A stretch of DNA of 64,000 nt, from NCBI GenBank assembly GCA_021773835.1, contig JAJFJQ010000010.1:62001-126000 (forward strand). The letters are read 5' to 3'. Position numbers and translations under genes: made by a program. Every line of letters begins with the position of its first letter. Within the stretch, counting starts at the first letter, position 1. Shown here in pieces: positions 15,265 through 42,167 of the stretch. This DNA is from Gammaproteobacteria bacterium. Lineage in GTDB: Bacteria > Pseudomonadota > Gammaproteobacteria > Ga0077536. Under the pieces are notes generated by a model. That model was not told where the DNA came from. It saw only the letters and a program-made list of their open reading frames with translations, and did not search any database.

Positions 15265-17646
15265 TTACCGGGCTTGTGGTTGGTTAACGTTGTTGATCAA
15301 GTCCATCACCTGTTGTGGACCGATAGGGGTAACCATTGGTACCAAAGGCCCGTCATACTCGGACAATGCATCGGCCAGTGCATTCGACAATGCGATATGC
15401 ACCGACAACATCGCGGCTTCGCCAGCGCCCTTGAATCCACCTTCGGTGTAGGGCGAGGGTGTCACGATGTGGGCGCATTCGATGTCCGGTAGGGTCGTGG
15501 CATTGGGGATCAGAAAATCCATAAACGACGCGTTCTTAAGCTGGCCGCTCTCATCGTATTCCAAAGATTCCAATAGCCCCATCCCAAGGCCTTGAGACGC
15601 GCCGCCACGCATTTGTCCGTCGACGACTTTTGGGTTGATCATATTGCCGCAGTCTTCGACGGCAACAATGCGTTTGATATCAAGCTTGCCCGTAAGCGGG
15701 TCCAACTCGATATGGACTGCGTGCGAGCCGTTGGCATAAGCGGCCGGCGGATCGTAATGCCGCGTTGCGCTCAAGGTCGGTTCGACCTCGTCTTCGTCTG
15801 GTCTAGCAAACCGGTCGTAGAAGGTGATGTAGGCAATCTCGGCGACTGTCATACTTCTATCGGGCGATCCTTTGACGTAGATCTTTCCTTCATCAATTTC
15901 CAAGTCGGCCGCATTCGCCTCCATGACGTGAGCAGCGATGGTCAGCAACTTATTACGAACATCGGTCGCCGCGCGGATGACCGAGCCACCGCCGATCACG
16001 GCGCTACGGCTGGCAAACGTCCCCATCCCATAGGCGCCGGTCGCCGTATCACCATCGAGCACGACGACGTCCTCGAACGGCACCCCGAGTGTCTCGGCGG
16101 CAACTTGCGCTAAGGTAGTTTTTAACCCTTGGCCGTGGCTAAACTGTCCACTTCTGACAGTAACTTTTCCGGTTGGATCCATCTCTACGGTAGTCGTGTC
16201 GTGTAAGGTCGCCGGAAAACCGCTCTCCTCGGCCGATCGACTACCCCAGTTCGTTTGCTCAACGAAAAACGCAATCCCGACACCCTTCAGTTTCCCATCT
16301 TCGGTTGCGCGAGATTGTTTCTTCGTGCTCGCGTAATCGGACAGCTCCAAGCACTTTTCCAGCACCTTGTGATAATCGCCGCTGTCATAGGTTTGGTTGG
16401 TAGAGGTGGTATAGGGGAATTCGTCGTGGCGGATGAAATTTTTGCGATAGATATCGACGATATCCAAGTTCAGCAAGCGCGCCGCTTTGGTCATCACCAT
16501 CTCGCGCGCATAGCAGCCGGCAGACCAGCCAACCCCGCGATACGCCCCGGTGGACATCTTATTTGTCAAACAAATCACCGTCTCAAAGCTGATGTTTGGT
16601 ACGGTAAATGCACCGGGTGCACCATTGTTTGCAGCGACCGATTCGATCAATCCCGACCACGGATATTGCGAATAGGCACCGGAATCGCCGATGTTTTTGA
16701 TCTTCATCCCGACCATCGTGCCATCTTTGTTAAACGCGATACTCATATAGATGGTGCATTGCTTCGCATGGGCCGCGCTCAATAGATGTTCGCGCCGATC
16801 CTCGACCCACTTGACCGGTTTTTTGATCTCTTTTGCGATCCACGGCAGGATGAATTCGTCCGGGAAAAAATGCGCCTTCTGACCGAAGCCGCCGCCAACT
16901 GTGGGTGCGACTACCCTGATCGTTTGCTCCGGTATACCGAGATTTACGGCAATTGACGTACGTAATGGATACGGCATCTGTGTCGATGACCACACCGTCA
17001 AGGTGTCGTCCCAACCCCAGGTTGCCATAACGCCCCGCGTTTCCATCGGTGCGGCGGAGGTACGACCAGTTGCGATTTTCTCACTTACGACAAGGTCAGC
17101 TTCTGCGAAAGCCTTGTCGACATCACCGTTACTGAAAGAGTCGGCGTAATAGATGTTGCTCTCGAGGTCTTCATGAATCAGAGCGGCGTCCGGCTGCATC
17201 GCATCCTCAACGTCGTTATAAGCCGGCAACGTCTCGTAATCGACTTCGATCAAATCAACGATGTCTTCAGCGATGTAGCGACTCGGCGCGACTACGGCGG
17301 CGATGATTTCACCCACGAAACGTACCTTGTCTTTCGCGAGGAAAGGCATCAATACAGGATGTAGGGTGCCGCGCGTCCCCGGAAAAAATGTCGTCGCCCC
17401 GGCACTAAACTCATTGTTTGTAAAAATATGGTGACAGTCGGGATGCGCCTTCGCCGCATCGAGTTTGAGATTCTTTATGCGCGCGTGGGCATGGGTACTT
17501 CTGAAAAAGGCAACCTCTAAGGTTCCCGGCAGTTTGATATCGTCGACATACTTTGCCTGCCCCATCAAAATCTGCGGGTCCTCGGTGCGCTTTCTAGGAA
17601 CCCCGATATGTTTGGTTACACCAGCTATTTCAATTGGTTTCTTCAT
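15265..17646 (-). CDS. CoxL-like molybdopterin-binding hydroxylase large subunit
   Basis: A 793-residue Moco subunit: GGGFGQK at 251-257, active-site loop AYRGVGW at 368-374 and the conserved base Glu near 743. The loop lacks the Cys of AYRCSFR, so despite the full cox-type operon this is not a form I CO dehydrogenase. Most residues are the same as in the orphan copy at 8813-11194 over the whole length. A GAGG motif precedes the ATG. It lies 15 bases after the [2Fe-2S] subunit gene, in the order G-M-S-L-D-E. Expected complex is (LMS)2, cytoplasmic, passing electrons from substrate hydroxylation via FeS to FAD. Confidence 0.92.
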   Translation of the reverse strand: MKKPIEIAGVTKHIGVPRKRTEDPQILMGQAKYVDDIKLPGTLEVAFFRSTHAHARIKNLKLDAAKAHPDCHHIFTNNEFSAGATTFFPGTRGTLHPVLMPFLAKDKVRFVGEIIAAVVAPSRYIAEDIVDLIEVDYETLPAYNDVEDAMQPDAALIHEDLESNIYYADSFSNGDVDKAFAEADLVVSEKIATGRTSAAPMETRGVMATWGWDDTLTVWSSTQMPYPLRTSIAVNLGIPEQTIRVVAPTVGGGFGQKAHFFPDEFILPWIAKEIKKPVKWVEDRREHLLSAAHAKQCTIYMSIAFNKDGTMVGMKIKNIGDSGAYSQYPWSGLIESVAANNGAPGAFTVPNISFETVICLTNKMSTGAYRGVGWSAGCYAREMVMTKAARLLNLDIVDIYRKNFIRHDEFPYTTSTNQTYDSGDYHKVLEKCLELSDYASTKKQSRATEDGKLKGVGIAFFVEQTNWGSRSAEESGFPATLHDTTTVEMDPTGKVTVRSGQFSHGQGLKTTLAQVAAETLGVPFEDVVVLDGDTATGAYGMGTFASRSAVIGGGSVIRAATDVRNKLLTIAAHVMEANAADLEIDEGKIYVKGSPDRSMTVAEIAYITFYDRFARPDEDEVEPTLSATRHYDPPAAYANGSHAVHIELDPLTGKLDIKRIVAVEDCGNMINPKVVDGQMRGGASQGLGMGLLESLEYDESGQLKNASFMDFLIPNATTLPDIECAHIVTPSPYTEGGFKGAGEAAMLSVHIALSNALADALSEYDGPLVPMVTPIGPQQVMDLINNVNQPQAR

Positions 17647-17661
17647 CGCGCTAAACCTCGT

Positions 17662-18156
17662 CTAAGCCTTTGCAGTGCCGGAAGATATCGCGGCTTCGGC
17701 CGCCGCAACGACCGAGTCGACGATGTCATGGTAGCCAGTGCACCGGCACAAATTGCCGGACAATGCCTCGCGGATCTCGTCGCGGTTCGGTTTGGGGTTG
17801 TGTTTAAGAAAGGCCTTCATACTCATCAGGATCCCTGGAGTGCAGAAACCACATTGCAGACCTTGGTTTTCCCAAAATGCATTTTGTAGCGGACTCAGCT
17901 CGCCATTCGTATCTAAAGATTCAACCGTCTCTATCGCTTTGCCTTCCGCCTGCAGTGCGAACGTCAAACAGGAGCGTACGGGAAGTCCGTCCATTAGGAT
18001 TGTGCAAGACCCACAAATACCATGTTCACAACCAACGTGTGTCCCGGTAAGGTCAAGGTGGTGCCGGATAAAATCGGATAGGAGTGTTCGCGGTTCGATC
18101 TCCCTATCGTAGGTGACCCCATTGACATTAAGACTGATCTTTTTCTTATCAACCAT
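17662..18156 (-). CDS. CoxS-like [2Fe-2S] small subunit of molybdenum hydroxylase
   Basis: A 164-residue iron-sulfur subunit. The plant-ferredoxin-type cluster uses Cys43, 48, 51 and 63 (CEHGICGSC...C). The family-specific helical domain holds the second cluster with Cys102, 105, 137 and 139 (CGFC...CRC). A GGAG site precedes the ATG. It lies between the FAD and Moco subunit genes, as usual for this enzyme class. Confidence 0.93.
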   Translation of the reverse strand: MVDKKKISLNVNGVTYDREIEPRTLLSDFIRHHLDLTGTHVGCEHGICGSCTILMDGLPVRSCLTFALQAEGKAIETVESLDTNGELSPLQNAFWENQGLQCGFCTPGILMSMKAFLKHNPKPNRDEIREALSGNLCRCTGYHDIVDSVVAAAEAAISSGTAKA

Positions 18157-18166
18157 GTTGAACTCC

Positions 18167-19042
18167 TTAACTGGCGGCCTGCGCCCGAGAGAGGGCGTCT
18201 GCCAAGGCTCTAACCGTTAGCACTTCGGCAACGTTGCCGCGATATTCATCTGTCACATGCACGTCGCTTTCCGCATCGACGACCTCACTAACCTTTTTAG
18301 CGGCCTCCGCGAATAACGCATCAGAGCAACTCTGCCCGAGCAAAGCATCCTCGACTTCCGTGGCGCGCACCGGGGTCGACGCAACGCCGAACAAAACCAC
18401 GCGCGCAAAACTACATTTCCCGCCGTCGTCTAGAGCGATAATCGCGGCGCTGCCAACAAGCGCGAAATCACCGGCGCGACGCGCGACTTCATGCAGTCCC
18501 CAACCGCTGTTTTCCGGTGGCGCCTTAAATAAAATCGAGATGAGAACTTCGTCGCTTTGCAGCGCTGTCGTCATGTACGTGATAAAAAAATCTTCAGCGG
18601 CCATAACCTGCTTATCTGATGCGCTTTGTATTTCAAATTCAGCATCTAACAGCAACGACATTGCCGGCAATTCGGACGCCGGATCCGCGTTTACAATACT
18701 GCCGCCTACGGTCCCTTTGTTGCGGATCTGAAAATGCGCAATGTGCTCCAGCGCATTCGCGAGTACCGGCAGCCGCCGCCGCACAACGGGATCATGCTCG
18801 GCAATCGCCTGCGTCGTCGTGGCTTTAATGCGAACGCCATCCGATTCATCGGTAATTTCGCTCGGTGAGTCGATGTTACTGATGTCGATCAGAAATTGGG
18901 GTCGAGCCAAGCGGTAATTCATCGCTGCGATGAGACTTTGTCCACCGGCTAGGATCTTTGCGTCGTCGCCATGCGCGCGCAACAATTCGCACGCGTGATC
19001 TAGGCTCGTTGCCCTAAAATACTCAAAATTAGCTGGTTTCAT
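18167..19042 (-). CDS. CoxM-like FAD-binding medium subunit of molybdenum hydroxylase
   Basis: A 291-residue FAD subunit. The two FAD-contact motifs are seen as AGGQS at 32-36 and GTVGGSIVNADPASE at 110-124, and the C-terminal CO dehydrogenase flavoprotein domain completes the usual length. It takes electrons from the [2Fe-2S] subunit and passes them to a quinone or other acceptor. It starts 5 bases after coxG-like stop and ends 10 bases before the small subunit start, so it is in the middle of a tight operon. Confidence 0.92.
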   Translation of the reverse strand: MKPANFEYFRATSLDHACELLRAHGDDAKILAGGQSLIAAMNYRLARPQFLIDISNIDSPSEITDESDGVRIKATTTQAIAEHDPVVRRRLPVLANALEHIAHFQIRNKGTVGGSIVNADPASELPAMSLLLDAEFEIQSASDKQVMAAEDFFITYMTTALQSDEVLISILFKAPPENSGWGLHEVARRAGDFALVGSAAIIALDDGGKCSFARVVLFGVASTPVRATEVEDALLGQSCSDALFAEAAKKVSEVVDAESDVHVTDEYRGNVAEVLTVRALADALSRAQAAS

Positions 19043-19047
19043 ATCGG

Positions 19048-19521
19048 TTAACCTTGTGCTGATTCGATCTGCTTTTCGTCGAATAGGTTTTTCATCTCGT
19101 CATTCAATGCCTTGAAAAACTGCTTTGCCATATACTTCGAGATCCCGGTCATCACGCGCCCGCCGATACCCGCGATCAAACCGCCAACTTCAGCGTCGCA
19201 CGACCAACGCATCAGCGTCCCACGTTCGACCGGATCCAAATAGCAATCCACCTTCATGTTGATATAGCCTGGTGTCCCCGCACCCTCACCGTCTAGGACA
19301 TAGTGGTGTGGAAACTCCACATCGGTTACACGAACTTTCCCTTCGTAGTCACCTTTGATCGCAGCCACCCCGAGAGAGACGGCCACGAGGTAACCGCCTT
19401 CACCATCCGGCACCATAGATTTGCACCCGGGGATGGTTTTAATGAGGATGTCGATGTCGTGCAGCGCCGTCCACACGTCGCGCGGTTCGTAGAGAAAGTC
19501 TGCAGTGCCTTCGAGCTTCAT
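19048..19521 (-). CDS. coxG: CoxG-like SRPBCC membrane-anchor protein
   Basis: A 157-residue protein of the CoxG/SRPBCC fold (MKLEGTADFLYEPRDVWTAL opening, then alternating strands and a long C-terminal helix containing KYMAKQFFKAL). In carboxydotrophs CoxG recruits CO dehydrogenase to the cytoplasmic membrane; the same role is likely for this hydroxylase. It is the first gene of the operon, so the promoter should lie in the 310 bases upstream. Confidence 0.88.
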   Translation of the reverse strand: MKLEGTADFLYEPRDVWTALHDIDILIKTIPGCKSMVPDGEGGYLVAVSLGVAAIKGDYEGKVRVTDVEFPHHYVLDGEGAGTPGYINMKVDCYLDPVERGTLMRWSCDAEVGGLIAGIGGRVMTGISKYMAKQFFKALNDEMKNLFDEKQIESAQG

Positions 19522-19831: not shown

Positions 19832-20788
19832 TTAGTCGATAAACATCGAACTGACCGATTGACCCGTACTGATGCGGTTAATGCTCTCTGCAATTAATTC
19901 CGCGACTGTTAGTTGTCGGATCGCCTCACACGCGTGTCCCCGCTCGGTCAGCGGAATCGTGTCGGTTACCACCAATTCATCCAGGCTCGATTGCGAGACG
20001 TTGTCGATCGCCGGCCCCGACAAGACCGGATGCGTACAATACGCCACCACACGCTTGGCGCCGTTCTCCTTTAAGGCATCTGCTGCCTTGCATAGCGTTC
20101 CCGCGGTATCGACCATGTCATCGACGATGACGCAACTGCGGCCGTCAACGTCGCCGATAATATTCATCACCTTGGCCTCATTCGCGCGCGGTCGGCGTTT
20201 GTCGATGATTGCTAGATCGGCGTTATCAAGATGACTCGCCACGGCGCGGGCCCTGACGACGCCACCCACATCGGGTGAGACGATGATGAGATCCGGATAT
20301 TCGTGCTTCCAAATGTCACCGAGCAGAACCGGCGAGGCATAGATATTATCCATGGGCATATCAAAAAAGCCCTGGATCTGCTCGGCGTGTAGATCGAGCG
20401 TCACCACCCGGTCGGTACCAACGGTCGAGATCATATTCGCGACCACCTTGGCGGTGATCGGAACACGTGCGGAGCGAGGCCGGCGGTCTTGACGGGCATA
20501 ACCGAGGTAGGGGACAACCGCGGTGATATAGGCCGCCGACGCACGCCGCAAGGCATCGATCAAGACCAGCATCTCGATCAAATTATCGTTCGTCGGCTGG
20601 CAAATTGACTGCAATACGAATACGTCGCGCCCGCGGACGTTTTCTTCAATTTCGACGTTAATCTCGCCGTCGCTAAAGCGTCCCACTGCCGCCTTTCCAA
20701 GTTTGACCTGCAGGTGCCCAGCCACTGCGCGCGCCAGCGCGGGGTTAGAATTGCCAGCAAACAGCATCATTGTCGAGTCGTCGAGCAT
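19832..20788 (-). CDS. prs: Ribose-phosphate pyrophosphokinase (PRPP synthetase)
   Basis: About 318 residues, the normal class I length. Recognisable parts are [10 protein letters not shown] near the N terminus, the regulatory-flexible segment [16 protein letters not shown], and the PRPP-binding loop [11 protein letters not shown] near 210-220. It makes PRPP from ribose 5-phosphate and ATP. ATG 20788 is preferred because AAGCTAGG precedes it; an ATG at 20803 would add five residues and has only pyrimidines upstream. It lies just downstream of a nucleoside hydrolase on the same strand instead of in the ispE/lolB/pth context common in gammaproteobacteria. It could be an accessory copy feeding the two NAMPT enzymes. 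Confidence 0.93.
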
Positions 20789-20853
20789 ACGCCTAGCTTC
20801 CATAGGTGGAGGTGTTTACGTTCTGATCAATTACGTACGTCACGCGCAATTAC

Positions 20854-21804
20854 TCACGCGTTTCCATACCGACTTAAGCCTTCAAACAACAAGTCGTAGA
20901 AACCGTTGGCATCCACCGTGTGGATCCAATTAACGTTCGGTGGACGATCGGTAACGTGCCAAAAATCCACAGAGGTATGTCCGATTGTCAATTCGGACTG
21001 GGTCTCTACGCTTAGGTTACAGCGCTTGCCTTGGAATAATTCCGGTTTCAACAAATACGCGACGGTGCAGGGATCATGTAAGGGTGCGCCATTGGATCCA
21101 TATTTCGCGGAATCAAACTTATTATAAAAATCCAGCATGGCGGCCGCGGCACGTCCGGGCTCGCTACCAATCGCGCGCAGACGATCTCTGCGTTCTTTGG
21201 TCGATAACACTTGATGAGTGGCGTCCAGCCCCATGACAGTAATTGGTACACCGCTGCGAAACACCCGATCTGCGGCCTGCGGGTCCACGAGAATATTGAA
21301 TTCCGCCGACGGCGAAATATTGCCACCCTCACGCATCGCCCCGCCCATAAGCACAACCTCGGCCACACCGTTTCGTATAGCAGGTTCCTTTGCAAATGCA
21401 GTTGCGATATTGGTTAATGGGCCCATGAGCACCAACGTGATCGGTGCATCCGTCACACCTAGTAAGGCCTCGATAATGAAATCCACCGCATGTGCTTGCC
21501 CCAGCATCGCTCGGGGCTCGACGATAGGGATCCCGTCAATGCCGGTCTTACCGTGCACCTTCTCCGCGGTTACTAATTGACGTTCAAGCGGTTTCTCACA
21601 GCCAGCATAAACTACGATATCGTCGCGGCCGGCGATGTCGCACATCAATCGTGCATTTCTCGTGGTGAGATCTAGTTGAACGTTGCCGGCAACGGTCGTA
21701 ATACCGAGGATATCGAGTTCGTCTGTGCAGGACATTGCAAGAAGCAACGCAATTGCATCGTCCTGTCCGGGATCACAATCGATGATTATTGGCAGTTTTT
21801 CCAC
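20854..21804 (-). CDS. Inosine-uridine preferring-type nucleoside hydrolase (copy 1)
   Basis: A 316-residue ribonucleoside N-glycosidase. The calcium site is seen as DCDPGQDD at 9-16, with the asparagine/ribose loop GNISPSAEFNILVDP near 161-175 and the catalytic His243-Asp244 pair in PLHDP. The start is GTG at 21804, with GGGGAG 7 bases upstream. It releases free ribose from nucleosides, possibly including nicotinamide riboside. It is the first gene of a minus-strand unit with prs (gap about 65 bases) and diverges from the ribokinase operon, which would phosphorylate the ribose. Confidence 0.92.
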   Translation of the reverse strand: MEKLPIIIDCDPGQDDAIALLLAMSCTDELDILGITTVAGNVQLDLTTRNARLMCDIAGRDDIVVYAGCEKPLERQLVTAEKVHGKTGIDGIPIVEPRAMLGQAHAVDFIIEALLGVTDAPITLVLMGPLTNIATAFAKEPAIRNGVAEVVLMGGAMREGGNISPSAEFNILVDPQAADRVFRSGVPITVMGLDATHQVLSTKERRDRLRAIGSEPGRAAAAMLDFYNKFDSAKYGSNGAPLHDPCTVAYLLKPELFQGKRCNLSVETQSELTIGHTSVDFWHVTDRPPNVNWIHTVDANGFYDLLFEGLSRYGNA

Positions 21805-22148: not shown

Positions 22149-22158
22149 TTAACGTTTG
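22149..22158. promoter_or_regulatory. Second, weaker LacI-type operator half-site
   Basis: TTAACGTTTG shares the AACGTTT core with the stronger site 145 bases away, which would allow a looped or two-site arrangement. It is not a full palindrome. Confidence 0.25.
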
Positions 22159-22507
22159 ATTGAGTAAAATCATTTTCGCGTCCAAATCAAGGATGTTTCA
22201 GCCACTTCCGGGTTGCGCTTCGCCGGTCCGGCCCGTCAAGACCAAGTGCCTTGACGACCATTTATGCCTCGACTAATGTAGAAACGAATATAACAATGCG
22301 AGATCCGCGGAATCGGGATACCAAGCTTGATCGGTTCTCATCGACTGGAGCGCACATGTGACCGCGTAAGCAGGCACGAGGCGGTTACCGAATATATAAC
22401 TAGAATTTGCGATACCGCGCGGAGTGGATCGTGACCAAGCGGCATGTCTAGTTGCCCAATCCACAAAGTAGGCTGTCCCATTCCCCCCAATTGGAGGCAA
22501 GTGTCAA

Positions 22508-23284
22508 ATGAGTTCAAGCAAATCCTCAACGCTACGTGTATTGGTCGTCGGCGAATCCTGGATCAAGCATATTATTCACCTAAAAGGTTTCGACGAATTT
22601 CACTCGACGGAATACGAAGAAGGTGCCGGGATTTTTCTTGGTGCGCTCGCTGATGCCGGCTACGACATCACCTATATACGCGCGCATGAGGTATCGATGC
22701 GCTTTCCAACAACACGCGCCGAGCTCGACAAGTTCGACGTGGTCATCTTGAGCGATATTGGATCAAATTCATTCCTGTTGTGCGATGAGACTTGGCATCG
22801 TTCGGAACGCACGGTAAATAGGCTGAGCTTGATCGCCGACTATGTCGAAGGTGGCGGTGGTCTCTTGATGGCCGGCGGCTATATGTCGTTCACTGGCATC
22901 GACGGGCGCGCGCGTTATCAAGCGACACCGCTGGCAGCGGTGCTGCCAGTCAGCATGCTTGATCGTGACGACCGTGTGGAGGCGCCTGAAGGTATCGTCG
23001 CGACGTTTCGGCACCCTGAACACCCGGCACTTGGCGGCACACCTGCGGAGTGGCCGATCCTGCTTGGTTATAATCAATTGAAGGGAAAACCAGGGGCGAC
23101 CGTGATCGCGGAATACAACGGTGACGCGTTGCTTACTGTCGATACTGTTGGCAGCGGGCGGGCGGTGGCCTTCGCCTCGGATGTCGCGCCGCATTGGGCG
23201 CCGCCTGAGTTCATGGCGTGGCCTCATTACGCAAAACTATGGGCCTCCATCGTATCTTGGGCTGCCGGCGGTAGCGACAACTAG
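22508..23284 (+). CDS. STM3548-like protein with class I glutamine-amidotransferase-like fold
   Basis: A 258-residue cytoplasmic protein of the group typified by Salmonella STM3548 (flavodoxin-like, glutamine-amidotransferase-related fold). Typical features are LVVGESWIKHIIHLKGFDEF at the N terminus, FDVVILSDIGSN near 80, a Gly-rich GGGGLLMAGGYMSF segment near 115 and WPHYAKLW close to the C terminus. There is no Cys nucleophile elbow, so amidotransferase activity is doubtful. Such proteins often sit with LacI regulators and ribokinases in sugar or nucleoside operons, as here. GGAGG precedes the ATG, and the LacI gene starts 3 bases after its stop. Confidence 0.78.
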   Translation: MSSSKSSTLRVLVVGESWIKHIIHLKGFDEFHSTEYEEGAGIFLGALADAGYDITYIRAHEVSMRFPTTRAELDKFDVVILSDIGSNSFLLCDETWHRSERTVNRLSLIADYVEGGGGLLMAGGYMSFTGIDGRARYQATPLAAVLPVSMLDRDDRVEAPEGIVATFRHPEHPALGGTPAEWPILLGYNQLKGKPGATVIAEYNGDALLTVDTVGSGRAVAFASDVAPHWAPPEFMAWPHYAKLWASIVSWAAGGSDN

Positions 23285-23287
23285 ACG

Positions 23288-24343
23288 ATGACAATATCTC
23301 GATTAACGTCGAGTCAACGCCCGACAATGAAAGACGTCGCGGTGCGCGCGAACGTGTCCGTAAGTACGGTTAGCTACGTGTTGAACGGCACCGGTCCCGT
23401 CAGCGCCGATCGTCGAGCACGGGTACTCAACGCCGTACGCGAGCTGGACTACATACCGAACGAGTCGGCGCGCAATTTGAAGCGACAATCGGCCTCGACT
23501 ATCGGACTCGTCGTACCGGATTTGTCTAACCAGTTCTTTACGCTACTCGCTAGTGGCGCGGCGCACGCGGCGGCCGAGCGCGATGTGCTGGTCGTACTGT
23601 GCAGTTCCGAAAGTACCGAAGAAGCGGAATCCAGTAATGCTCGGCTGCTAAGGAGTCAACGTGTTGATGGGGTCGTCTATCTCACTGGCTTTGACGAGTC
23701 GCCAACGTCTCTACTCAAACTCCAATCACTCGGACCTGTCGTACTAGTCGACGAGCGTGTTCCGGGGGCCGACCTGCCGGCGGTACTCGCGGACGGTCGA
23801 CGTGGCGCACGTGACGTGGCGGCACATGTAGTTGGTCTTGGCCATAAGCGCTTTGCCTGTATTGCGGGACCGACCGCATTGTGGACCGCCGAACAACGCC
23901 TAGCCGGCTATCGTGAAGCGCTAGCGCTCGGCGGTCTTGACCCTGACCGCATGGAAGTCGTGATCGGTGACTACCGAATGAATTCGGGCTTTAGATTAGC
24001 CAAACAGGTATTAGATGTCCCAGTGCATCGGCGACCGACGGCGTTGCTGTGCGCGAACGACATGATGGCGATTGGCGCACTCGAATATTGTCGCGCCAGT
24101 GGCCTCGACGTGCCCGGAGATGTGAGCGTGGTCGGCTTCGACGATGTGCCGATGGCACCGCTTCTTTCTCCAAGACTTACCACAGTGCGTCAACCAGCGC
24201 GGGAAATGGGGGTGCACGCAGCAGAATTGCTCTTGGATCTTATTCGCGGTGACGCTAAACCCGACGCGCCGAAGTCGTTTCCGGTCGAAGTGATCGTGCG
24301 TGAATCTGCGGCACCGCCTCGGAGTTTGTGGACAAATGGCTGA
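23288..24343 (+). CDS. LacI-family transcriptional regulator
   Basis: A 351-residue regulator. The LacI helix-turn-helix covers about residues 13-34 (MKDVAVRANVSVSTVSYVLNG), followed by the hinge helix SARNLKRQ and a periplasmic-binding-protein-like effector domain with the typical D-G-V-V-Y-L and D-M-M-A-I-G segments. It sits between the STM3548-like gene and ribokinase and overlaps the latter by 8 bases. It probably responds to ribose, a nucleoside or a phosphorylated sugar and binds the palindrome in the divergent region 1.3 kb upstream. Confidence 0.92.
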   Translation: MTISRLTSSQRPTMKDVAVRANVSVSTVSYVLNGTGPVSADRRARVLNAVRELDYIPNESARNLKRQSASTIGLVVPDLSNQFFTLLASGAAHAAAERDVLVVLCSSESTEEAESSNARLLRSQRVDGVVYLTGFDESPTSLLKLQSLGPVVLVDERVPGADLPAVLADGRRGARDVAAHVVGLGHKRFACIAGPTALWTAEQRLAGYREALALGGLDPDRMEVVIGDYRMNSGFRLAKQVLDVPVHRRPTALLCANDMMAIGALEYCRASGLDVPGDVSVVGFDDVPMAPLLSPRLTTVRQPAREMGVHAAELLLDLIRGDAKPDAPKSFPVEVIVRESAAPPRSLWTNG

Positions 24344-25277
24344 ACGCGTTGTAGTTGTTGGGGCGATCAACACTGACTTTGTGATTTCGGCGTCGCGTCT
24401 ACCGGCGCCGGGTGAAACCGTTGTTGGTGGTGGCTTGCAAACCTTTGGCGGCGGTAAGGGCGCCAACGCAGCGGTCGCGGCAGCACGGGTGGGGGCTCGC
24501 GTGTCACTTATTGGTGCGGTTGGTGCAGATGATTCAGGCAAACGCGCACTGGACGAACTTTCGCGCGATAAAGTCGATACCAGCGGTGTCGCCGTACTCG
24601 ACGATGAGCCGACTGGCGCGGCGCTGATCGTGGTGGATGCCAATGGGGAGAACCAAATAGCACTCGGACCGGGCGCCAATGGCGCTGTGTCAGCGGAGCA
24701 TGTGCGTACTGCATTATCGACACTGCTCCCGACTACCGATGTTGTCTTAGTCAGCACGGAAATTCCGTTGGCCGCTGTCAGGGCGGCGATTGAAACAACG
24801 ACCGAGGCGAGGGTGCAATGCGTTCTGAATCCCGCACCTGTGATAGCTAGACTCGTCGACGTGCTACCGCTGCGCCCGATACTAACGCCAAACGAAATCG
24901 AACTTGGGGATCTAGCGCGCGCATTCTCCGGGGCCGTAGCGCCTGCAGGCGAAGACAAAATTCTAAATCAACTTCATCGTGTCGGCGAACAAACGCAAAG
25001 TCCGGTTATTGTCACCCTCGGTGGTGACGGTTGCGCAGTGCGTCTGGCGAATGGTGAGGTTGAACGGATCCCAGCTCGAGGCGCCAATTCGGTCGTCGAT
25101 ACAACTGGCGCGGGTGACACATTCAACGGGGTATTCGCCGCCCGCTTGGCGGCCGGCGATGCCATTATGATTGCGATCAAAACTGCTGTTGTCGCCGCTT
25201 CGATATCAGTCTCAGCCGTTGGGGCTCGACCGGGTATGCCGAACGCTGCTGCAATAGCCGGTGTGTTTCGCGAGTGA
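24336..25277 (+). CDS. rbsK: Ribokinase (PfkB family)
   Basis: A 313-residue PfkB-family sugar kinase. The substrate-site motif GGGKGANAAVAAAR is at 38-51 and the anion-hole/base motif DTTGAGDTF starts at 255, giving catalytic Asp261. This fits ribokinase length and pattern. ATG 24336 overlaps the lacI stop by 8 bases, consistent with coupled translation. It would convert ribose, for example from the adjacent nucleoside hydrolase, to ribose 5-phosphate, the substrate of the nearby prs product. Specificity for ribose over other sugars or nucleosides is inferred from context. Confidence 0.87.
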   Translation: MAERVVVVGAINTDFVISASRLPAPGETVVGGGLQTFGGGKGANAAVAAARVGARVSLIGAVGADDSGKRALDELSRDKVDTSGVAVLDDEPTGAALIVVDANGENQIALGPGANGAVSAEHVRTALSTLLPTTDVVLVSTEIPLAAVRAAIETTTEARVQCVLNPAPVIARLVDVLPLRPILTPNEIELGDLARAFSGAVAPAGEDKILNQLHRVGEQTQSPVIVTLGGDGCAVRLANGEVERIPARGANSVVDTTGAGDTFNGVFAARLAAGDAIMIAIKTAVVAASISVSAVGARPGMPNAAAIAGVFRE

Positions 25278-25307
25278 ATAAACATGCATTTTTGCAAGGA
25301 GAGTTCG

Positions 25308-25379
25308 GTGACGACGACACAAGCAATAGCGAGAATGAGAACGCAAATTTTCCGACGATGCTTAGAAGGAGGTAGTTAA
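25308..25379 (+). CDS. Possible 23-codon leader peptide coupled to the cupin gene
   Basis: GTG at 25308 with AAGGAGA 5 bases upstream opens a 23-codon frame whose TAA stop overlaps the ATG of the cupin gene (TAATG). It contains the cupin gene's own ribosome site (AAGGAGG) in its last codons. The peptide is basic (RMRTQIFRR). It has no domain. Coupled translation or attenuation is possible, but chance cannot be excluded at this length. Confidence 0.3.
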   Translation: MTTTQAIARMRTQIFRRCLEGGS

Positions 25380-25918
25380 TGGCCGCTTCACGCAGTCGCG
25401 CAAAATCGAAAGGGGCTGAGATACGGGCCTCGGTGCAAATACGCGAAAACCGATTTCCACGTCACATCGCACACACCGATATCGCGGCAATGCCACGATA
25501 CCGTTTTGTTAAAGGGATGGAGAGCGGGATATTTATCTCGCGCGAACACGATGAGTCGAGGTTTTATAGCCAAGGTCTGTGTTTCCACGACGCTGACATG
25601 GATGACCTCGTGTGGGATGAAGTGAGTTGGGACGAGGCGTTTTACTGCATGAAGGGCCAGCTCGTCGTGATTGTGGAGGATGTCGAAGGCAATGCTGCAA
25701 CATTCACTATCGACGAAGGTGATCATTTCTGGGCGCCGGCCGGTTACAAATACACCTTGCGCGCTTCCGGGGTCGATTCAATTAACTTCTGGACGATGGC
25801 ACCGGTCTTGCACAGCGGCTGGCGCGATACCGGCGATCCTGCGGGGCCCGCCTACAGCGATATGCTATCTAATACCGGTAAACCACCGAAAAAAACCAGT
25901 CGGAAAAGGAAACGATAA
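25379..25918 (+). CDS. Cupin protein, EutQ-like (copy A)
   Basis: A 179-residue single-domain cupin. The N-terminal 30 residues are basic and disordered-looking, the barrel covers about 35-150 (PRYRFVKGMESGIFISRE..., then DEAFYCMKGQLVVIVED and EGDHFWAPAGYKYTL), and the tail is Lys/Arg-rich. The usual metal ligands are only partly present: the first motif has Glu/Tyr in place of His-x-His. So it may bind a ligand without metal, as EutQ-type cupins do. AAGGAGG precedes it. A paralogue is at 26548-27000; each is followed by a PPOX-fold gene. Confidence 0.75.
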   Translation: MAASRSRAKSKGAEIRASVQIRENRFPRHIAHTDIAAMPRYRFVKGMESGIFISREHDESRFYSQGLCFHDADMDDLVWDEVSWDEAFYCMKGQLVVIVEDVEGNAATFTIDEGDHFWAPAGYKYTLRASGVDSINFWTMAPVLHSGWRDTGDPAGPAYSDMLSNTGKPPKKTSRKRKR

Positions 25919-25919
25919 G

Positions 25920-26468
25920 ATGCCTGTCACGCAATCAGATATTGCGCCGTTGACCGGCGCGGCGCTCTGGGGCTACCTAGAAAAAGCCACGACAATGCGG
26001 CTTGCTACTGTCACCGGTAGACAAGCGATAGAAGTCTCTCCCGTATGGTTTGTGGTCAGGCGGGAGACGATCTACTTTCCGATCGATCCGACCGTTGGAG
26101 ATCCAGGTCGCGCGGCCACGCCAGCGTCACGACACCTACCCGCGTTGGATTCCAACAACGCGAAAGTGTCTGCCGTTATCGATGATGGAGAGGATTTGAC
26201 GAACTTCCGCGGTGTACAGGTGGCGGGTAAGGCCACGCCCGTAGCAGGTGCGAAACTCACCGAAGAGTTGCTTGACTTGACGCTGGAAAAATATTTCTAC
26301 ATTGGACACCCACATTTAGAACACTATTTAAGCCGCGGCGCGCTCGAGTTGCGCCGCTGGTTTTGCTTGGTTCCCGACCGCATGGATGGTTGGGATCGAC
26401 GGCTATTACCGCAGCCGCCGATTTTGGAACGCAGAATTCTCCCACCTCACTTAAGAGGCAACAAATGA
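25920..26468 (+). CDS. Pyridoxamine 5'-phosphate oxidase-like (PPOX) protein, copy A
   Basis: A 182-residue split-barrel flavin-binding-type protein. It has the N-terminal helix GAALWGYLEKATTMRLATVT, a strand segment PVWFVVRRETIYFPID, and the C-terminal EKYFYIGHPHLEHYL...GWDRR segment shared with copy B at 27013-27555. The ATG at 25920 comes 1 base after the cupin stop, so the two are coupled. FMN, F420 or haem could be the cofactor; the role is unknown. A longer open frame to 25671 overlaps the cupin gene and is not real. Confidence 0.75.
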   Translation: MPVTQSDIAPLTGAALWGYLEKATTMRLATVTGRQAIEVSPVWFVVRRETIYFPIDPTVGDPGRAATPASRHLPALDSNNAKVSAVIDDGEDLTNFRGVQVAGKATPVAGAKLTEELLDLTLEKYFYIGHPHLEHYLSRGALELRRWFCLVPDRMDGWDRRLLPQPPILERRILPPHLRGNK

Positions 26469-26547
26469 GCGACCCAGCCGACCCATCAGGGAACAGGCTG
26501 CTGTTGTTGGTTTAAAACGATATCGATATCAGAAGGAGGAAGTGGCT

Positions 26548-27000
26548 ATGAGCGCCAAAGAGCAGTTAGAAGCGAGTCCGCAACGCTATCCGAAGGTAAT
26601 GCCCGCCGATGAGATCGAAGCGATGCCACGCTTGGAATTCAATACGGGTATCGATACGGGAATTTTTATTTCACAAGAACGCGAGGATGCTCGTTATTTC
26701 AGGCAAGGCGTTTGCTATGCCAAGGCCGATCACGAGCCAGTCCACTGGACTCAATCGAATTTCGATGAGGCACAGTATTGTATCTCTGGGATGATCCGCC
26801 TAAGAGTGGAGGACGCCGCCGGCAAGGTGGTCGTGCTAGAGGCGCAGCCGGGGGACAACATCTACCTGCCTGCGGGATATACCTATACGCTCGAGGCAAC
26901 CGGGGTCGAATATACCTTCCTATGGACCAGTGGTCCGTCGAACCGGCCGGGAATTGTCGAGGCGCCGGGTTATAGCAAACAGCTACGCGCATTGCGTTGA
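26548..27000 (+). CDS. Cupin protein, EutQ-like (copy B)
   Basis: A 150-residue cupin clearly related to copy A (shared pattern P-R-x-x-F-x-x-G-x-x-x-G-I-F-I-S and the PAGYxYTLxAxGV core). It lacks copy A's basic tails. ATG 26548 has AAGGAGGA 7 bases upstream, and GTG 26542 is too close to that site. The metal-ligand positions are again degenerate. It precedes the second PPOX gene by 12 bases, so the pair copies the arrangement immediately upstream. Confidence 0.75.
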   Translation: MSAKEQLEASPQRYPKVMPADEIEAMPRLEFNTGIDTGIFISQEREDARYFRQGVCYAKADHEPVHWTQSNFDEAQYCISGMIRLRVEDAAGKVVVLEAQPGDNIYLPAGYTYTLEATGVEYTFLWTSGPSNRPGIVEAPGYSKQLRALR

Positions 27001-27012
27001 GGGAGTACTAAC

Positions 27013-27555
27013 ATGGCATTAATAGAAAGCACGCAATTCGTCGAAGTTACGGCCAGCATGGCCGCGCCGCTGCGGGGTAAGAAACGCTGGGCCTATCTCG
27101 AACGCCAAAAAACATTCCGCCTGGCGACGACGAACGAGGACGGGTCAATTTATCTCTCGTCTTTATGGTATGTGATACAAAACGAGACCATTTATCTACC
27201 AGTCGATGCGGCCGGAAAGCATGGCGTTAATTTCGAAGCGCAACGGAATCTAGCCGGACTTGTCGATAGCGGTGACGAATTTTCAACCGTGGCTGGCGTG
27301 CGGATTTTCGGATCGATCGAAGTGGTAGACGACCCCGCCTTGTTTGATGCGTTACAAGACCTTGTATTCGAAAAGTACTTTTACGCCGGCCACCCCTACG
27401 CGGAACATTACTTTGCGTTCGGGAATACTGTCGGACGCAAGTACTACGCCCTTACGCCAACAAAAATGATCGGCTGGGATTCGCGTGAAATTTCGCCGCC
27501 GCAGGCTGTAGAAGCGCGCCTGCTTCCAGACTTCGTAACCGACCGGCGTATTTGA
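27013..27555 (+). CDS. Pyridoxamine 5'-phosphate oxidase-like (PPOX) protein, copy B
   Basis: A 180-residue PPOX-fold protein with the helix KKRWAYLERQKTFRLATTN, the strand SLWYVIQNETIYLPVD and the C-terminal EKYFYAGHPYAEHYF...GWDSRE segment. All are aligned with copy A. GAGGGAG precedes the ATG. It belongs to the same transcript as the two cupins and is followed 77 bases later by the divergent NAMPT gene. Likely a flavin-dependent or cofactor-binding partner of the cupin; substrate unknown. Confidence 0.77.
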   Translation: MALIESTQFVEVTASMAAPLRGKKRWAYLERQKTFRLATTNEDGSIYLSSLWYVIQNETIYLPVDAAGKHGVNFEAQRNLAGLVDSGDEFSTVAGVRIFGSIEVVDDPALFDALQDLVFEKYFYAGHPYAEHYFAFGNTVGRKYYALTPTKMIGWDSREISPPQAVEARLLPDFVTDRRI

Positions 27556-27632
27556 TAGAAGTGCGATACCCCGACCTTCATTGGCCGGGACATCATCTAC
27601 GTTTGCATAGCATCTGATCAAGAGGGTCAAAC

Positions 27633-29093
27633 ATGGGTTTCGACAACATCATCATCAACACCGACAATTACAAGCATTGTCACTACTCCTTGTACCCGCC
27701 TGGCACCGAGTATATCTCTAGTTACGTCGAGTCCCGCGGCGGCGAATTTCAATCGACGCTGTTCGTTGGACTACAGGCGTTTCTGCGCGAATACCTCATG
27801 CATCCAATCACATTGGAAGATATTGACGAAGCGGAATTCATCGAGCGTGAACAGGGCATGCACTTCAATCGTGATCTGTGGCTCGGTGTCTTAAACGACC
27901 ATGGCGGATATCTGCCGGTCGAGATCGAGGCGGTCCCGGAAGGGACGGTAGTGCCACCAAGAAATGTTTTAGTGCAGCTCATCAATACCGATCCGAAATA
28001 CTGGTGGGTGACGAGCTTTTTTGAGACCGCGTTGCTGCGGGCGATTTGGTATCCAACCACGATTGGAACGATCAGTTGGCTTGCGAAACAGGTGATCCGC
28101 GATGCGCTCGAAAACACATCTGATAACCCGCAAGTATTGCGCCACATGCTGCATGATTACGGTGCACGCGGTGTAAGCTCGCAAGAGTCCGCCGCGCTTG
28201 GCGGCTTAGCCCATTTAGTCAATTTTAGTCAGAGCGACACGGTGCCGGGCATCATTGCAGCGAAGCGTTACTATAATGCTGGCCACGTGTCGAACTCGGG
28301 CCCGAACTCAGAACATGCTGGATTTTGTGCGTGGGGCAAGGAGAATGAAGCGGCTGCGTTGCGCAACATGCTTGAAATGTACAAAGACAACGGCGTAGCC
28401 CTCCTACTAACAGACACCTACGACCATGAAAATTGTGTCAAAAACATCATCGGCGGCGAACTCAAGGAAGCGATTCAAAATTTCCCGGGTCTGGTCGGTG
28501 CACGACCGGATTCCGGTGACGTTGTGCAGGTAACCGCCGACACGACCGAATGGCTGATGGACGCATTTGGCTACGAGACCAATTCCAAAGGTTTCAAAGT
28601 GCTGCCGCCGTACCTCCGTGTGGTGCAGGGAGACGGGGTAAACTTTTATGCGCTACCCGAGATCTTCATCGAACTTGAACGTCGCGGTTTTTCTGCGGAG
28701 AACGCAATATTCGGCATGGGTGGCGGCTTATTGCAGCATCACAACCGCGATACAATGAATTTTGGCCAGAAGGCGAACGCAGTCTGCGTGAACGGCGTGT
28801 GGCGCGATATCTTCAAATCACCTACCGGGTCGGAAATGAAGGTTTCGAAAAAAGGTCGGCTCGCACTCAAATACGAAAACGGGATCCACACAACAGTACC
28901 GCGAGATTCGATCAAGCCTGAAGAAAATGAACTCGTACCGGTATTTCGTAATGGCAAGTTGCTCAAGAAATGGGACTTCACCGAAGTGATCGAAAGAAGC
29001 GAACGGGAGTATCCGGAATCTTATTACAGCGATGTGGTGAAGCCATTACGCGAAGCACGCAGTGCAAGCGGCGCTAAGTCGTCCGCGGGATAA
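27633..29093 (+). CDS. nadV: Nicotinamide phosphoribosyltransferase-like enzyme, divergent copy
   Basis: A 486-residue NAMPT-fold protein, full family length. Residues matching human NAMPT are seen: Tyr13 (human Tyr18), Tyr176 (Phe193), Asp202 (Asp219), phospho-acceptor His228 (His247) and Arg291 (Arg311). However, the loop after the His is AGFCAWGKENE where canonical enzymes and copy 2 have STITAWGKDHE, and SDSYD is LTDTYD. It probably makes a ribonucleotide from PRPP and nicotinamide or a related base. Specificity may differ from nicotinamide. It follows the cupin/PPOX pairs and is 15 bases from a HAD phosphatase gene. Confidence 0.85.
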   Translation: MGFDNIIINTDNYKHCHYSLYPPGTEYISSYVESRGGEFQSTLFVGLQAFLREYLMHPITLEDIDEAEFIEREQGMHFNRDLWLGVLNDHGGYLPVEIEAVPEGTVVPPRNVLVQLINTDPKYWWVTSFFETALLRAIWYPTTIGTISWLAKQVIRDALENTSDNPQVLRHMLHDYGARGVSSQESAALGGLAHLVNFSQSDTVPGIIAAKRYYNAGHVSNSGPNSEHAGFCAWGKENEAAALRNMLEMYKDNGVALLLTDTYDHENCVKNIIGGELKEAIQNFPGLVGARPDSGDVVQVTADTTEWLMDAFGYETNSKGFKVLPPYLRVVQGDGVNFYALPEIFIELERRGFSAENAIFGMGGGLLQHHNRDTMNFGQKANAVCVNGVWRDIFKSPTGSEMKVSKKGRLALKYENGIHTTVPRDSIKPEENELVPVFRNGKLLKKWDFTEVIERSEREYPESYYSDVVKPLREARSASGAKSSAG

Positions 29094-29108
29094 TAAGGAC
29101 CCCATATT

Positions 29109-29732
29109 ATGAGCTGCCTGCATGTCTTCGACATGGATGGAACCCTATTGATCGGATCAGCCTGCATAGAAATATCGCGTGCCGTTGGCTTCTATGAGGA
29201 GAACGTCGCGATCCAAGACGCCTGGACAGACGGAAAACTTAGCGACAGCGGGTATTGGGAAAACTGCCTCCCACTTTGGAGCGGGTTGTCGGAAAAGCAG
29301 ATCGATAAGGCCTTCGCCGACACTCAATGGCTCGATGGTGTCGAATCCGTCCTCCGCGACATTCAGGCCCGCGACGAGCACAGCATTACTATTTCGCAGT
29401 CGCCCCGATTTTTTGTCGAGCGGCTCAAGGCGTGGGGACTTGGCGAGGCGTTTGGCGCCGAGGTTACCCCCGGGAATGCCGCCGGCGCTGAACAGATGGT
29501 TTCTAGTGAAGATAAACTCAAAATCACAAATCGCCGACTTCGCGAGCTCGGACTCTCCATTGATGAGTGCGTGGTCTATGGCGATTCCAATTCTGATCTC
29601 GCGCTGTTCGAGAACCTCCGACATACCGTCGCTGTCAATGCCGAAGAGCGGATCCGAAAACTCGCGAGCGCCACCTATGACGGGGGCGATTTGTGGGACG
29701 CCTATATGGCCGGCCGCAAACTATTGGATTAA
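29109..29732 (+). CDS. HAD-superfamily phosphatase
   Basis: A 207-residue HAD hydrolase of the phosphoserine-phosphatase-like (IB) type. Motif I is FDMDGT with nucleophile Asp8 and Asp10, motif II is the Ser in TISQSP near 97, Lys in SSEDKLK gives motif III, and YGDSNSDLALF near 157 is motif IV. AAGGA precedes the ATG. Directly after a NAMPT-like gene, it may dephosphorylate the nucleotide product or remove a dead-end nucleotide. The substrate is inferred. Confidence 0.83.
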   Translation: MSCLHVFDMDGTLLIGSACIEISRAVGFYEENVAIQDAWTDGKLSDSGYWENCLPLWSGLSEKQIDKAFADTQWLDGVESVLRDIQARDEHSITISQSPRFFVERLKAWGLGEAFGAEVTPGNAAGAEQMVSSEDKLKITNRRLRELGLSIDECVVYGDSNSDLALFENLRHTVAVNAEERIRKLASATYDGGDLWDAYMAGRKLLD

Positions 29733-29808
29733 CCAATAGGCTAGCCGGGAGCGCCAGATTTCGGTTACTTTATACTCATAATGCGAAATGACAGCGAGGT
29801 GCAGATAG

Positions 29809-30246
29809 ATGGCTGAAGCAATTGCGCGATCAAAAACGGCAGAGACACTCGCCGATGCAAGCTCCGGGGAACGTGACAAGAGCCGCCGTGAGACAATCAT
29901 CCGCTTCGGTAGCGCCTGGGCCGCAGGCGATGTCGATGGTTTGATGAGTCTGATGAGTGATCAGCCACGTTATCGGGGATCAACAGGTCCCGAGCCCGGG
30001 ATCGAATTTGTCGGATCGGAACAAGTTCGTGCCGCCTTCGAACGGATCGCTGGACCCAATGCAGGATCACCGCCTGCTGAACCCGCCCCACCGCCTGAGA
30101 TGTATTTTTTCGAGGATCGAGCGCTCGCCTTCTGGCGTCTTAAATTTCCTGGCTCTGATTGCTTAGTGGAAGGTGTCGATGTGATGACATTCACGGACGA
30201 TGGGCGCATCGCGGTCAAGGATGCCTACCGCAAGGCGTTCAGTTAA
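29809..30246 (+). CDS. SnoaL-like (NTF2-fold) protein
   Basis: A 145-residue NTF2/SnoaL-type protein, with the standard opening helix ETIIRFGSAWAAGDVDGLMSLMS and GSEQVRAAFERIAG, ending in strands with GVDVMTFTDDGRIAVKDAYRK. Such domains serve as hydrolases, isomerases or binding proteins. A GCGAGGTG motif precedes the ATG. It lies between the HAD phosphatase and gcvT, 76 bases after the first and 163 bases before the second. No catalytic pair could be assigned with confidence. Confidence 0.75.
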   Translation: MAEAIARSKTAETLADASSGERDKSRRETIIRFGSAWAAGDVDGLMSLMSDQPRYRGSTGPEPGIEFVGSEQVRAAFERIAGPNAGSPPAEPAPPPEMYFFEDRALAFWRLKFPGSDCLVEGVDVMTFTDDGRIAVKDAYRKAFS

Positions 30247-30409
30247 ATGCCAGGCTGCCGGTAGGATCTATCTTATTTTGCGCTAGAGATTCCGCGCGAA
30301 TTCCGCTGAATTCTTTCGGCGTGACACGTCTATACCCGCGTCTACAAAGGTGCCATCATGGCCGTGCCGCCTCACCCGAGATGCGGACCCGAACGGACCT
30401 TTGATTTCG

Positions 30410-31546
30410 ATGACCGATAAGCTCGACGGATCGCAATCTACGACCCTACGCCAGACACCACTGCACGCGTTGCACCAGGAACTGGGTGCGAAGTTCGCCC
30501 CATTCGCAGGGTTCTCGATGCCGATCGAATACGGCAACGGCCTCAAGCACGAGCACTTACATGTGCGCGAAGCCGCGGGACTATTCGATGTATCGCACAT
30601 GGGCCAAATCGCGATCCGTGGACCGCGAGTCATAGAGGATATTGAAGGCCTCGTGCCGAGCGACATCACGGCGCTCAAACCATTTAGACAGCGCTACTCG
30701 GTGTTGACCAATGAGCGGGGCGGGATCATCGACGATGTCATGGTCACGCACCTACCAGAGCAAATGTTTGTCGTGGTTAACGCTGCAAACATTACACAAG
30801 ACCTCACCCACATCACCGAACGCCTAGCGCCCAATAATTCGATTGAGCTATTAGAAGACCGCGCCCTACTCGCGATTCAAGGTCCAAGCGCCGCTGCGTG
30901 CCTCGCCAAATGGGCGCCGGACATTGCGAAACTCGAATTCTTGCAAGCCGGCTACTTTCACTTCGGCGACGTTGAATGTCTCGTCCACCGGTGCGGATAC
31001 ACCGGCTGCGACGGATTCGAACTGTCACTCGGCGCAAACGAGGCAGCATCGTTTGCAAGCATGCTGCTCGAAGACGAGACCTTAGAGCCCATTGGACTCG
31101 GCGCGCGCGACAGCTTACGCCTCGAGGCGGGGCTGTGCCTTGCCGGGGTCGACTTCGATGCAGCTACAACCCCGGTGGAAGCCGCGCTCGAATGGGTAAT
31201 TGCGCGCAAGTATCGATCGGAACCGCAAACGGCACCGCGATTTCCTGGCGCAGAACAGATCCTGAAACAACTTAGCGATGGCGCCGAGCGCAGACGGATC
31301 GGACTGACCTCGACGGGGCGCGCGCCAGTGCGTGCCGGCACCTCGCTGCTATACGATGGACGTGAGGTCGGTCATGTTACCAGCGGCAGCTTTGGACCAT
31401 CGTTCGGGGGACCGGTCGCGATGGGCTACACCGACACTAAACTGGCCGCCCTCGGGACTAAGATGACCGTCGAGATCCGAGGACGCGTACACGAACTTCA
31501 AGTCACAAAGCTACCATTTGTGGCGACCACCTATTACAAGCCGTGA
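30410..31546 (+). CDS. gcvT: Glycine cleavage system T protein (aminomethyltransferase)
   Basis: A 378-residue aminomethyltransferase. It carries HLHVREAAGLFDVSHMGQ and GGIIDDVMVT, with the catalytic Asp in that segment (Asp108/109), followed by the OB-fold GcvT_C domain ending VGHVTSGSFGPSFGGPVAMGY. It transfers the methylene from lipoyl-H protein to tetrahydrofolate. ATG 30410 gives the family's normal length; an upstream GTG in frame would add 20 unrelated residues. No glycine riboswitch pattern was seen in the 163 bases upstream. It is 19 bases from gcvH. Confidence 0.93.
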   Translation: MTDKLDGSQSTTLRQTPLHALHQELGAKFAPFAGFSMPIEYGNGLKHEHLHVREAAGLFDVSHMGQIAIRGPRVIEDIEGLVPSDITALKPFRQRYSVLTNERGGIIDDVMVTHLPEQMFVVVNAANITQDLTHITERLAPNNSIELLEDRALLAIQGPSAAACLAKWAPDIAKLEFLQAGYFHFGDVECLVHRCGYTGCDGFELSLGANEAASFASMLLEDETLEPIGLGARDSLRLEAGLCLAGVDFDAATTPVEAALEWVIARKYRSEPQTAPRFPGAEQILKQLSDGAERRRIGLTSTGRAPVRAGTSLLYDGREVGHVTSGSFGPSFGGPVAMGYTDTKLAALGTKMTVEIRGRVHELQVTKLPFVATTYYKP

Positions 31547-31565
31547 ACAAAGGAGGACCTACGTC

Positions 31566-31940
31566 GTGAGTGCACTGCAATATACCACCGAGCACGAGTG
31601 GCTTCTGATAGAAGGATCGAATGCTACTGTTGGCATTTCGGATTATGCGCAGGAACAACTTGGCGACGTCGTCTACGTTGAACTGCCCGAGATTGGCCAA
31701 TCCTTCGGCCAAGGCGATAACGTTGGGGTCGTCGAGTCGGTGAAAGCGGTGGGCGAAATCTATATGCCGATTGCCGGCACGATCGAAGCGATCAATAGCC
31801 GACTAGAAGATGAGCCAGAGCTGGTCAACTCGGAACCAACTGCTGCCGGTTGGTTGTTCAAGGTCACGCTTGACGGTCAAGCCGATCTCGACGGACTGAT
31901 GGATGAGTCGGCCTATCTAGAATTTATCGCCACTCTTTAA
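31566..31940 (+). CDS. gcvH: Glycine cleavage system H protein
   Basis: A 124-residue lipoyl carrier protein. Lys60 in VESVKAVGE is the lipoylation site, and the E-H-E-W and G-I-S-D-Y-A-Q-E-Q-L-G-D motifs are typical. The start is GTG at 31566 with AAGGAGG 9 bases upstream. It carries the aminomethyl group between the P and T proteins. Directly between gcvT and gcvP in one operon. Confidence 0.95.
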   Translation: MSALQYTTEHEWLLIEGSNATVGISDYAQEQLGDVVYVELPEIGQSFGQGDNVGVVESVKAVGEIYMPIAGTIEAINSRLEDEPELVNSEPTAAGWLFKVTLDGQADLDGLMDESAYLEFIATL

Positions 31941-31996
31941 CACCGCTAACAACATCGTCCAGCGCTGCCGCGCAACACAAACCACAAGGATCAGTA

Positions 31997-37287: not shown

Positions 37288-37337
37288 ATTGCACCTCGCA
37301 TTAACTACACCAACGTCTTTTTATACGCGACCAAACA

Positions 37338-42161: not shown

Positions 42162-42167
42162 ATGTCG

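Follow-up and report, generated by a model that had tools for sequence, protein, structure and literature searches.

A gene cluster with a divergent NAMPT and cupin/PPOX pairs that may convert pyridine-type N-heterocycles through a phosphoribosyl tag

Introduction

In the C-P lyase pathway, the substrate is carried on ribose phosphate and altered while it is tagged, and the tag ends as phosphoribosyl pyrophosphate (PRPP) (PMC10574752). Ring reduction by split-barrel oxidoreductases is known from the FDOR-B enzymes TpnL and GupA, which reduce dehydropiperidine and dihydropyrazine rings, and Rv2991 (structure 1rfe) is listed among the FDORs with substrates unknown (PMC8498797). Here we describe a gene cluster at positions 19832-30246 of a 64,000-nucleotide stretch of a Gammaproteobacteria bacterium (contig JAJFJQ010000010.1, positions 62,001 to 126,000; the whole stretch is referred to as the window), in which two cupin/PPOX gene pairs and a divergent NAMPT-like phosphoribosyltransferase lie among genes for making and breaking a ribotide. 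We consider it reasonably likely that this locus converts a pyridine-type N-heterocycle via a phosphoribosyl tag in an F420-linked route, and the conversion is probably degradation. The cluster is larger than first noted. The first-pass annotation knew of no named pathway with this composition, and none was found in the literature searched, where most subscription journals are uncovered.

Results

Ribotide-making and ribotide-breaking genes are co-clustered with the cupin/PPOX pair

Two genes of the cluster lie on the minus strand of the window, encoding a ribose-phosphate diphosphokinase (PRPP synthetase, 19832..20803; above the NCBIfam PRK04923 cut-off) and a nucleoside hydrolase with a DPGQDDA motif (20854..21804), whose homologue in locus L011 (28810-29766) matches PF01156. 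The plus strand carries genes for a GATase1-like protein (22508..23284; PF07090, E 1.6e-97), a LacI-family regulator recognized from its sequence (23288..24343), a ribokinase-like PfkB kinase (24336..25277; best NCBIfam match ribokinase TIGR02152, 254 bits against a cut-off of 300), cupin 1 (25379..25918), PPOX 1 (25920..26468; PF01243), cupin 2 (26548..27000), PPOX 2 (27013..27555), the NAMPT-like enzyme (27633..29093), a HAD-IB phosphatase (29109..29732; above the TIGR01488 cut-off) and a SnoaL-like protein (29809..30246; PF12680). The genes from 22508 to 30246 lie on one strand, no more than about 100 nt apart, an arrangement from which a single transcript is plausible. The tandem pairs followed by NAMPT-like, HAD-IB and SnoaL genes are present as first annotated, and the pairs are indeed paralogous (39% identity between the cupins, 37% between the PPOX proteins) and similarly spaced internally (1 and 12 nt between cupin and PPOX). 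The start given for the first cupin, 25308, proved to be out of frame; the true start is 25379, after an AGGAGG site. Compared with the sister genome, dN/dS was 0.013-0.074 for both cupins, both PPOX proteins and the comparable part of the NAMPT, its N-terminal half, so the four pair genes and the NAMPT gene are truly coding, beyond doubt.

Twenty-two loci were read, namely the window, three plasmids and 18 loci recovered when 84,980 species genomes were scanned using a PPOX alignment. The scan loci belong to Actinomycetota, Gamma- and Alphaproteobacteria, related clusters are carried by Rhodococcus megaplasmids, and the carriers of the gene set are distantly related soil and water bacteria. 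Within the window's class, the PPOX query matched 1 of 369 genomes, the window's own, and the cupin is confined to its own genus among 58 related genomes. No relatives were found on viral contigs. NAMPT stands with the pair in 21 of the 22 loci. At the remaining locus, L024, the cluster is truncated by the contig edge; the sister locus L023 has its NAMPT gene about 10 kb further out. The first-pass annotation had asked whether the pair always accompanies the divergent NAMPT and the HAD gene: for NAMPT this was borne out at all 21 assessable loci, while the HAD gene is not obligatory, being found in 18 of 22 loci (and once on a second contig of the sister genome) and absent from L027 and L029. 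Pairs in unrelated neighbourhoods, the outcome that would have spoken against a linked set, were not seen among the 22 loci. The L024 record bears the title Bifidobacterium breve, but its cluster closely resembles the one in L023, an Actinomycetota metagenome-assembled genome (MAG), and the record is probably a mislabelled MAG.

The PRPP synthetase gene is present in 18 of the 22 loci, the LacI-family gene in 19 and the GATase1-like gene in 17; the nucleoside hydrolase gene is near the pair, and SnoaL homologues occur, in most clusters. No LacI operator shared across loci was found, and 18-nt palindromes with a central CG occurred at or slightly above chance. Most clusters have a single pair, matched by cupin 2 of the window; the tandem form occurs only in the window's genus, on Rhodococcus plasmids and in one Pseudonocardia genome. 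The tandem duplication is therefore a lineage variant. The tandem subtype of cupin 1 is also seen in L012, L009, L010 and L021, and PPOX 1, likewise of a tandem subtype, bears the insert GDPGRAATPA.

In gammaproteobacteria and many actinomycetes, genes for making a ribotide (PRPP synthetase, NAMPT) are co-clustered with genes for breaking it (HAD, nucleoside hydrolase, ribokinase), and the same holds for alphaproteobacteria, minus the nucleoside hydrolase. We reasoned that the base must change between making and breaking, because otherwise the enzymes would run a futile cycle burning ATP. The stretches read at L027 and L029 are without HAD, nucleoside hydrolase and ribokinase genes; instead, a PF04227/PsuG-family gene (PF04227 tested in L027) stands beside the PRPP synthetase gene. 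A LOG-family phosphoribohydrolase-like gene is found in L021 and L023. Since these parts swap, recovery of the tag is supported. Aldehyde dehydrogenase genes accompany 12 of the 22 loci, and CoA-transferase and acyl-CoA dehydrogenase genes are also found at some loci; such enzymes would suit a ring-opened product. The CoA-transferase is closest to succinate-glutarate CoA-transferase, and conversion of unsubstituted pyridine with a glutarate outcome was considered and set aside as a lead only, the match being far below the cut-off (338 against 750 bits). In several lineages an Amt-family transporter gene recurs beside the cluster (L013, with PF00909, L017, L023, L029 and L088).

The NAMPT base pocket is remodelled

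The window NAMPT belongs to its family by score (PRK09198, 517 bits against a curated cut-off of 405). It keeps D219, H247, R311, D313 and G353-D354 (human numbering), and H247, R311, D313, G353 and D354 are kept in the full-length aligned cluster members. The base pocket is altered: at the positions of the canonical nicotinamide pocket, F193, V242, A244, S275 and I309, the window protein has Y, G, N, L and G, and most cluster members share the changes S275 to L, I309 to G, V242 to G, A244 to N and S248 to A. Because the pocket is remodelled, nicotinamide itself is an unlikely substrate, as far as the residues tell. The 25 cluster-type NAMPT sequences form one clade (support 0.935), whose sister group is the NAMPT paralogue of the window's genus. 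In the window this second NAMPT (34919-36442) is 56% identical to the first, has a more canonical pocket and adjoins a CinA/PncC-like gene. In the genomes of the window's own family that were checked, NAMPT is missing wherever the cluster is missing, so the gene tracks the cluster rather than NAD salvage.

Among 397 genomes searched from the order to which the R. opacus genome belongs, four have a cluster-type NAMPT. For G605 and G751, two of the four, the surroundings of the NAMPT gene showed no pair; both of these loci retain the GATase1-like and PRPP synthetase genes, and the G751 operon includes a luciferase-like oxidoreductase. The tag module can thus work alongside a different ring-acting enzyme. 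Methyloligella sp. GL2 has two NAMPT genes of the cluster type, separated by about 17 kb (L028 and L070). The window region 34919-45825 holds, besides the second NAMPT (minus strand) and the CinA/PncC-like gene, genes for an OMPDC-family protein, an amidohydrolase, a PPOX protein, a RidA-like protein, an F420-type LLM protein and a second nucleoside hydrolase; its amidohydrolase shares an NCBIfam family with one encoded in the NAMPT operon of G751 (L087). This region is possibly a second ribosyl module.

F420 genes are linked to the cluster, and the cupin lacks canonical metal ligands

The PPOX model (pLDDT 84.6) is a split barrel, and Rv2991/1rfe is its nearest solved relative both by sequence and by fold (Z 17.2, 156 aligned, root-mean-square deviation (rmsd) 3.9). 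Choosing the cofactor from the fold was rejected, because relatives with F420, with FMN/FAD and with heme all gave high scores. F420 genes or the gene for F420-dependent glucose-6-phosphate dehydrogenase lie inside 10 of the 22 clusters, and the sole FbiC copy of genome G415 sits inside its cluster. The TIGR03554 cut-off of 420 bits was exceeded in L028 and L026 (450 and 482 bits), and that of CofGH in L028. CofH was matched in 17 of the 18 genomes from the PPOX-alignment scan. In the window genome, FbiC is present on another contig with CofD- and FbiB-like genes beside it, and judged by gene presence the host would be able to make F420. F420 is most likely the redox cofactor of the PPOX proteins.

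Cupin 2 is predicted to fold as a cupin barrel (model pLDDT 80.2), with 4e2g as a structural match (Z 12.7, 115 aligned, rmsd 2.7). In place of the metal ligands of the two cupin motifs, HxH...E and H, the alignment reads W-x-Q...DE and PAGYxY. A role as a metal dioxygenase is therefore disfavoured, and a match to 3-hydroxyanthranilate dioxygenase was marginal (17.4 bits against 220). Isomerase, hydratase or binding functions are candidate roles.

Neighbouring genes

A molybdenum hydroxylase set of CoxL, CoxS, CoxM and CoxG type (15265..19521, minus strand) adjoins the cluster in the window, L012, L016 and L018; CoxLMSG sets are possibly associated with the cluster, in gammaproteobacteria only. 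Two CoxL-type large subunits of the window (8813-11200 and 15265-17646) are 81% identical, and further Cox-type sets lie at 53727-62659. From 54001 to 64000, where a further Mo-hydroxylase and hydantoinase-like region is found, GC content rises from about 0.53 to about 0.56-0.60. The genes directly after the cluster on the same strand are the glycine cleavage genes gcvT, gcvH and gcvP (30350-34897), which are also near the cluster in the sister genome (L075) and were not seen at other clusters. DUF1302, MMPL/RND and DUF1329-type genes at 46950-52772 are 62-75% identical to a trio that adjoins the cluster in L016 and L018. The surroundings of L016 and L018 also contain an aldehyde ferredoxin oxidoreductase and an operon with a NicX relative. 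NicX relatives were dismissed as proof of a pyridine substrate, since 11 of 19 cluster-less own-family genomes carry one as well, and their link with the cluster may be incidental.

Discussion

From the gene content we infer a pyridine-type substrate, a catabolic direction and the following order of steps. PRPP synthetase would supply PRPP, from which the divergent NAMPT would move phosphoribose onto the ring nitrogen; the resulting ribotide would carry a positive charge and be easy to reduce. The PPOX protein would then pass a hydride from F420H2 to the ring, and its partner cupin and the GATase1-like protein might assist isomerisation, hydration or ring opening. Ribotide dephosphorylation by the HAD phosphatase, together with the nucleoside hydrolase, would free ribose or ribose 5-phosphate, a release that the PsuG-family glycosidase may perform in L027 and L029. 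Ribokinase would rephosphorylate ribose and, with PRPP synthetase, rebuild PRPP. Where present, the aldehyde dehydrogenases, CoA-transferase and acyl-CoA dehydrogenases would handle the opened chain.

Several observations weigh against this scheme. Flavin and heme PPOX members score nearly as high as Rv2991/1rfe in the fold comparison, and the PPOX proteins fall below the NCBIfam F420 cut-offs (TIGR03618, 34.7 bits against 79.05, E 1.7e-8 for PPOX 2). No FbiC match was found in the cluster genome G404, and the F420 genes of the window genome are not specific, because FbiC is found throughout its family. L016 and L018 are without a clustered PRPP synthetase, a ribokinase and a close nucleoside hydrolase; therefore, ribose recycling there would depend on genes elsewhere. 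The GATase1, LacI, ribokinase and SnoaL genes are missing from L009, L010 and L021, and the downstream catabolic genes differ from locus to locus.

The cluster might instead make a nucleoside or nucleotide as its end product, either a natural product or an unusual redox cofactor, close to the pathway first proposed for these genes, in which a nucleotide would be made or remodelled with a flavin-type redox step. Such a route would need a PRPP synthetase, a NAMPT and a reductase, all of which are present, and FDOR-B enzymes do take part in natural-product synthesis (PMC8498797). It is nevertheless unlikely given that a nucleoside hydrolase and a ribokinase are co-clustered, with a PsuG-family gene in their place in two lineages, that aldehyde dehydrogenase genes occur at more than half of the loci, and that no product-specific adenylyltransferase or nucleotidyl-ligase was noticed among the recurring genes. 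What stands of the original proposal is nucleotide handling and a deazaflavin or flavin redox step, the latter with F420 as the favoured cofactor; given that the cluster also encodes PRPP synthetase, nucleoside hydrolase and ribokinase, a transient activated intermediate of breakdown or conversion is a likelier identity for the nucleotide than an end product.

A place in NAD metabolism, as salvage of nicotinamide or nicotinamide riboside or as repair of damaged NAD(P) carried out by PPOX and cupin, is quite improbable. It would be consistent with the NAMPT scoring above the PRK09198 cut-off and with the NAMPT, HAD, nucleoside hydrolase, ribokinase and PRPP synthetase families all being able to act on nicotinamide mononucleotide or nicotinamide riboside, but on nicotinamide alone the gene set would be a futile cycle. 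The altered base pocket beside a more canonical paralogue, and the lack of any NAMPT in the cluster-less own-family genomes checked, also argue against it. Alternatively, ribosylation and F420H2 reduction might serve only to inactivate a toxic pyridine or nicotinamide-like compound, with no nutrient use. This reading could draw on the ties of FDOR enzymes to reductive detoxification (PMC8498797) and on the plasmid location in Rhodococcus; ribose-tag recycling, LacI-type regulation and clustered aldehyde dehydrogenase, CoA-transferase and acyl-CoA dehydrogenase genes suggest carbon or nitrogen use instead, and we regard pure detoxification as very unlikely.

If conversion of an N-heterocycle through a phosphoribosyl tag is the function, it would give a physiological role to an FDOR-type PPOX family with natural substrates so far unknown, and would account for the F420 genes carried by Rhodococcus megaplasmids and some Alphaproteobacteria. 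In addition, it would provide a further gene basis for N-heterocycle catabolism, hidden by annotations such as 'nicotinate phosphoribosyltransferase' and 'cupin', with phosphoribose as a recyclable activation tag in ring breakdown. More tentatively, and with somewhat less than even confidence, there may be a general catabolic strategy: a phosphoribosyl tag placed on a pyridine-type nitrogen would prepare the ring for reductive dearomatisation, with F420H2 as the reductant here, and would later be given back as PRPP; by analogy, phosphoribosylation would then play the activating role that CoA ligation plays for benzoate.

Among known systems, the nicotinate/2,5-dihydroxypyridine pathway is linked to this locus by the NicX relative (E 7.6e-71 to 7cn3) that adjoins the cluster in L016 and L018, but that pathway is oxygenase-based and proceeds without phosphoribosylation. 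Picrate degradation in Rhodococcus and Nocardioides offers a catabolic F420-dependent hydride attack on an aromatic ring (PMC8498797). Its reductases, however, are LLHT enzymes acting on nitroarenes. We know of no NAMPT or ribose recycling in that pathway. TpnL and GupA share with the cluster enzymes the PPOX split-barrel fold, likely F420 use and, in the scheme proposed here, the reduction of a six-membered N-ring, whereas they serve the biosynthesis of antibiotics or other natural products, and no phosphoribosyl tag or cupin partner is described for them (PMC8498797). Compared with NAMPT in nicotinamide salvage (PRK09198), the cluster enzyme is in the family by score and keeps the PRPP-site residues, but it has a remodelled pocket, forms its own clade and lies beside ribotide-breaking and F420 genes. 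The C-P lyase pathway (PhnGHIJKLMNP) differs in substrate, enzymes and attachment chemistry and operates without NAMPT, PPOX, cupin or F420. To our knowledge, it is nonetheless the nearest known logic, the likeness being an analogy in which a ribose-tagged substrate is processed and the tag is converted to PRPP.

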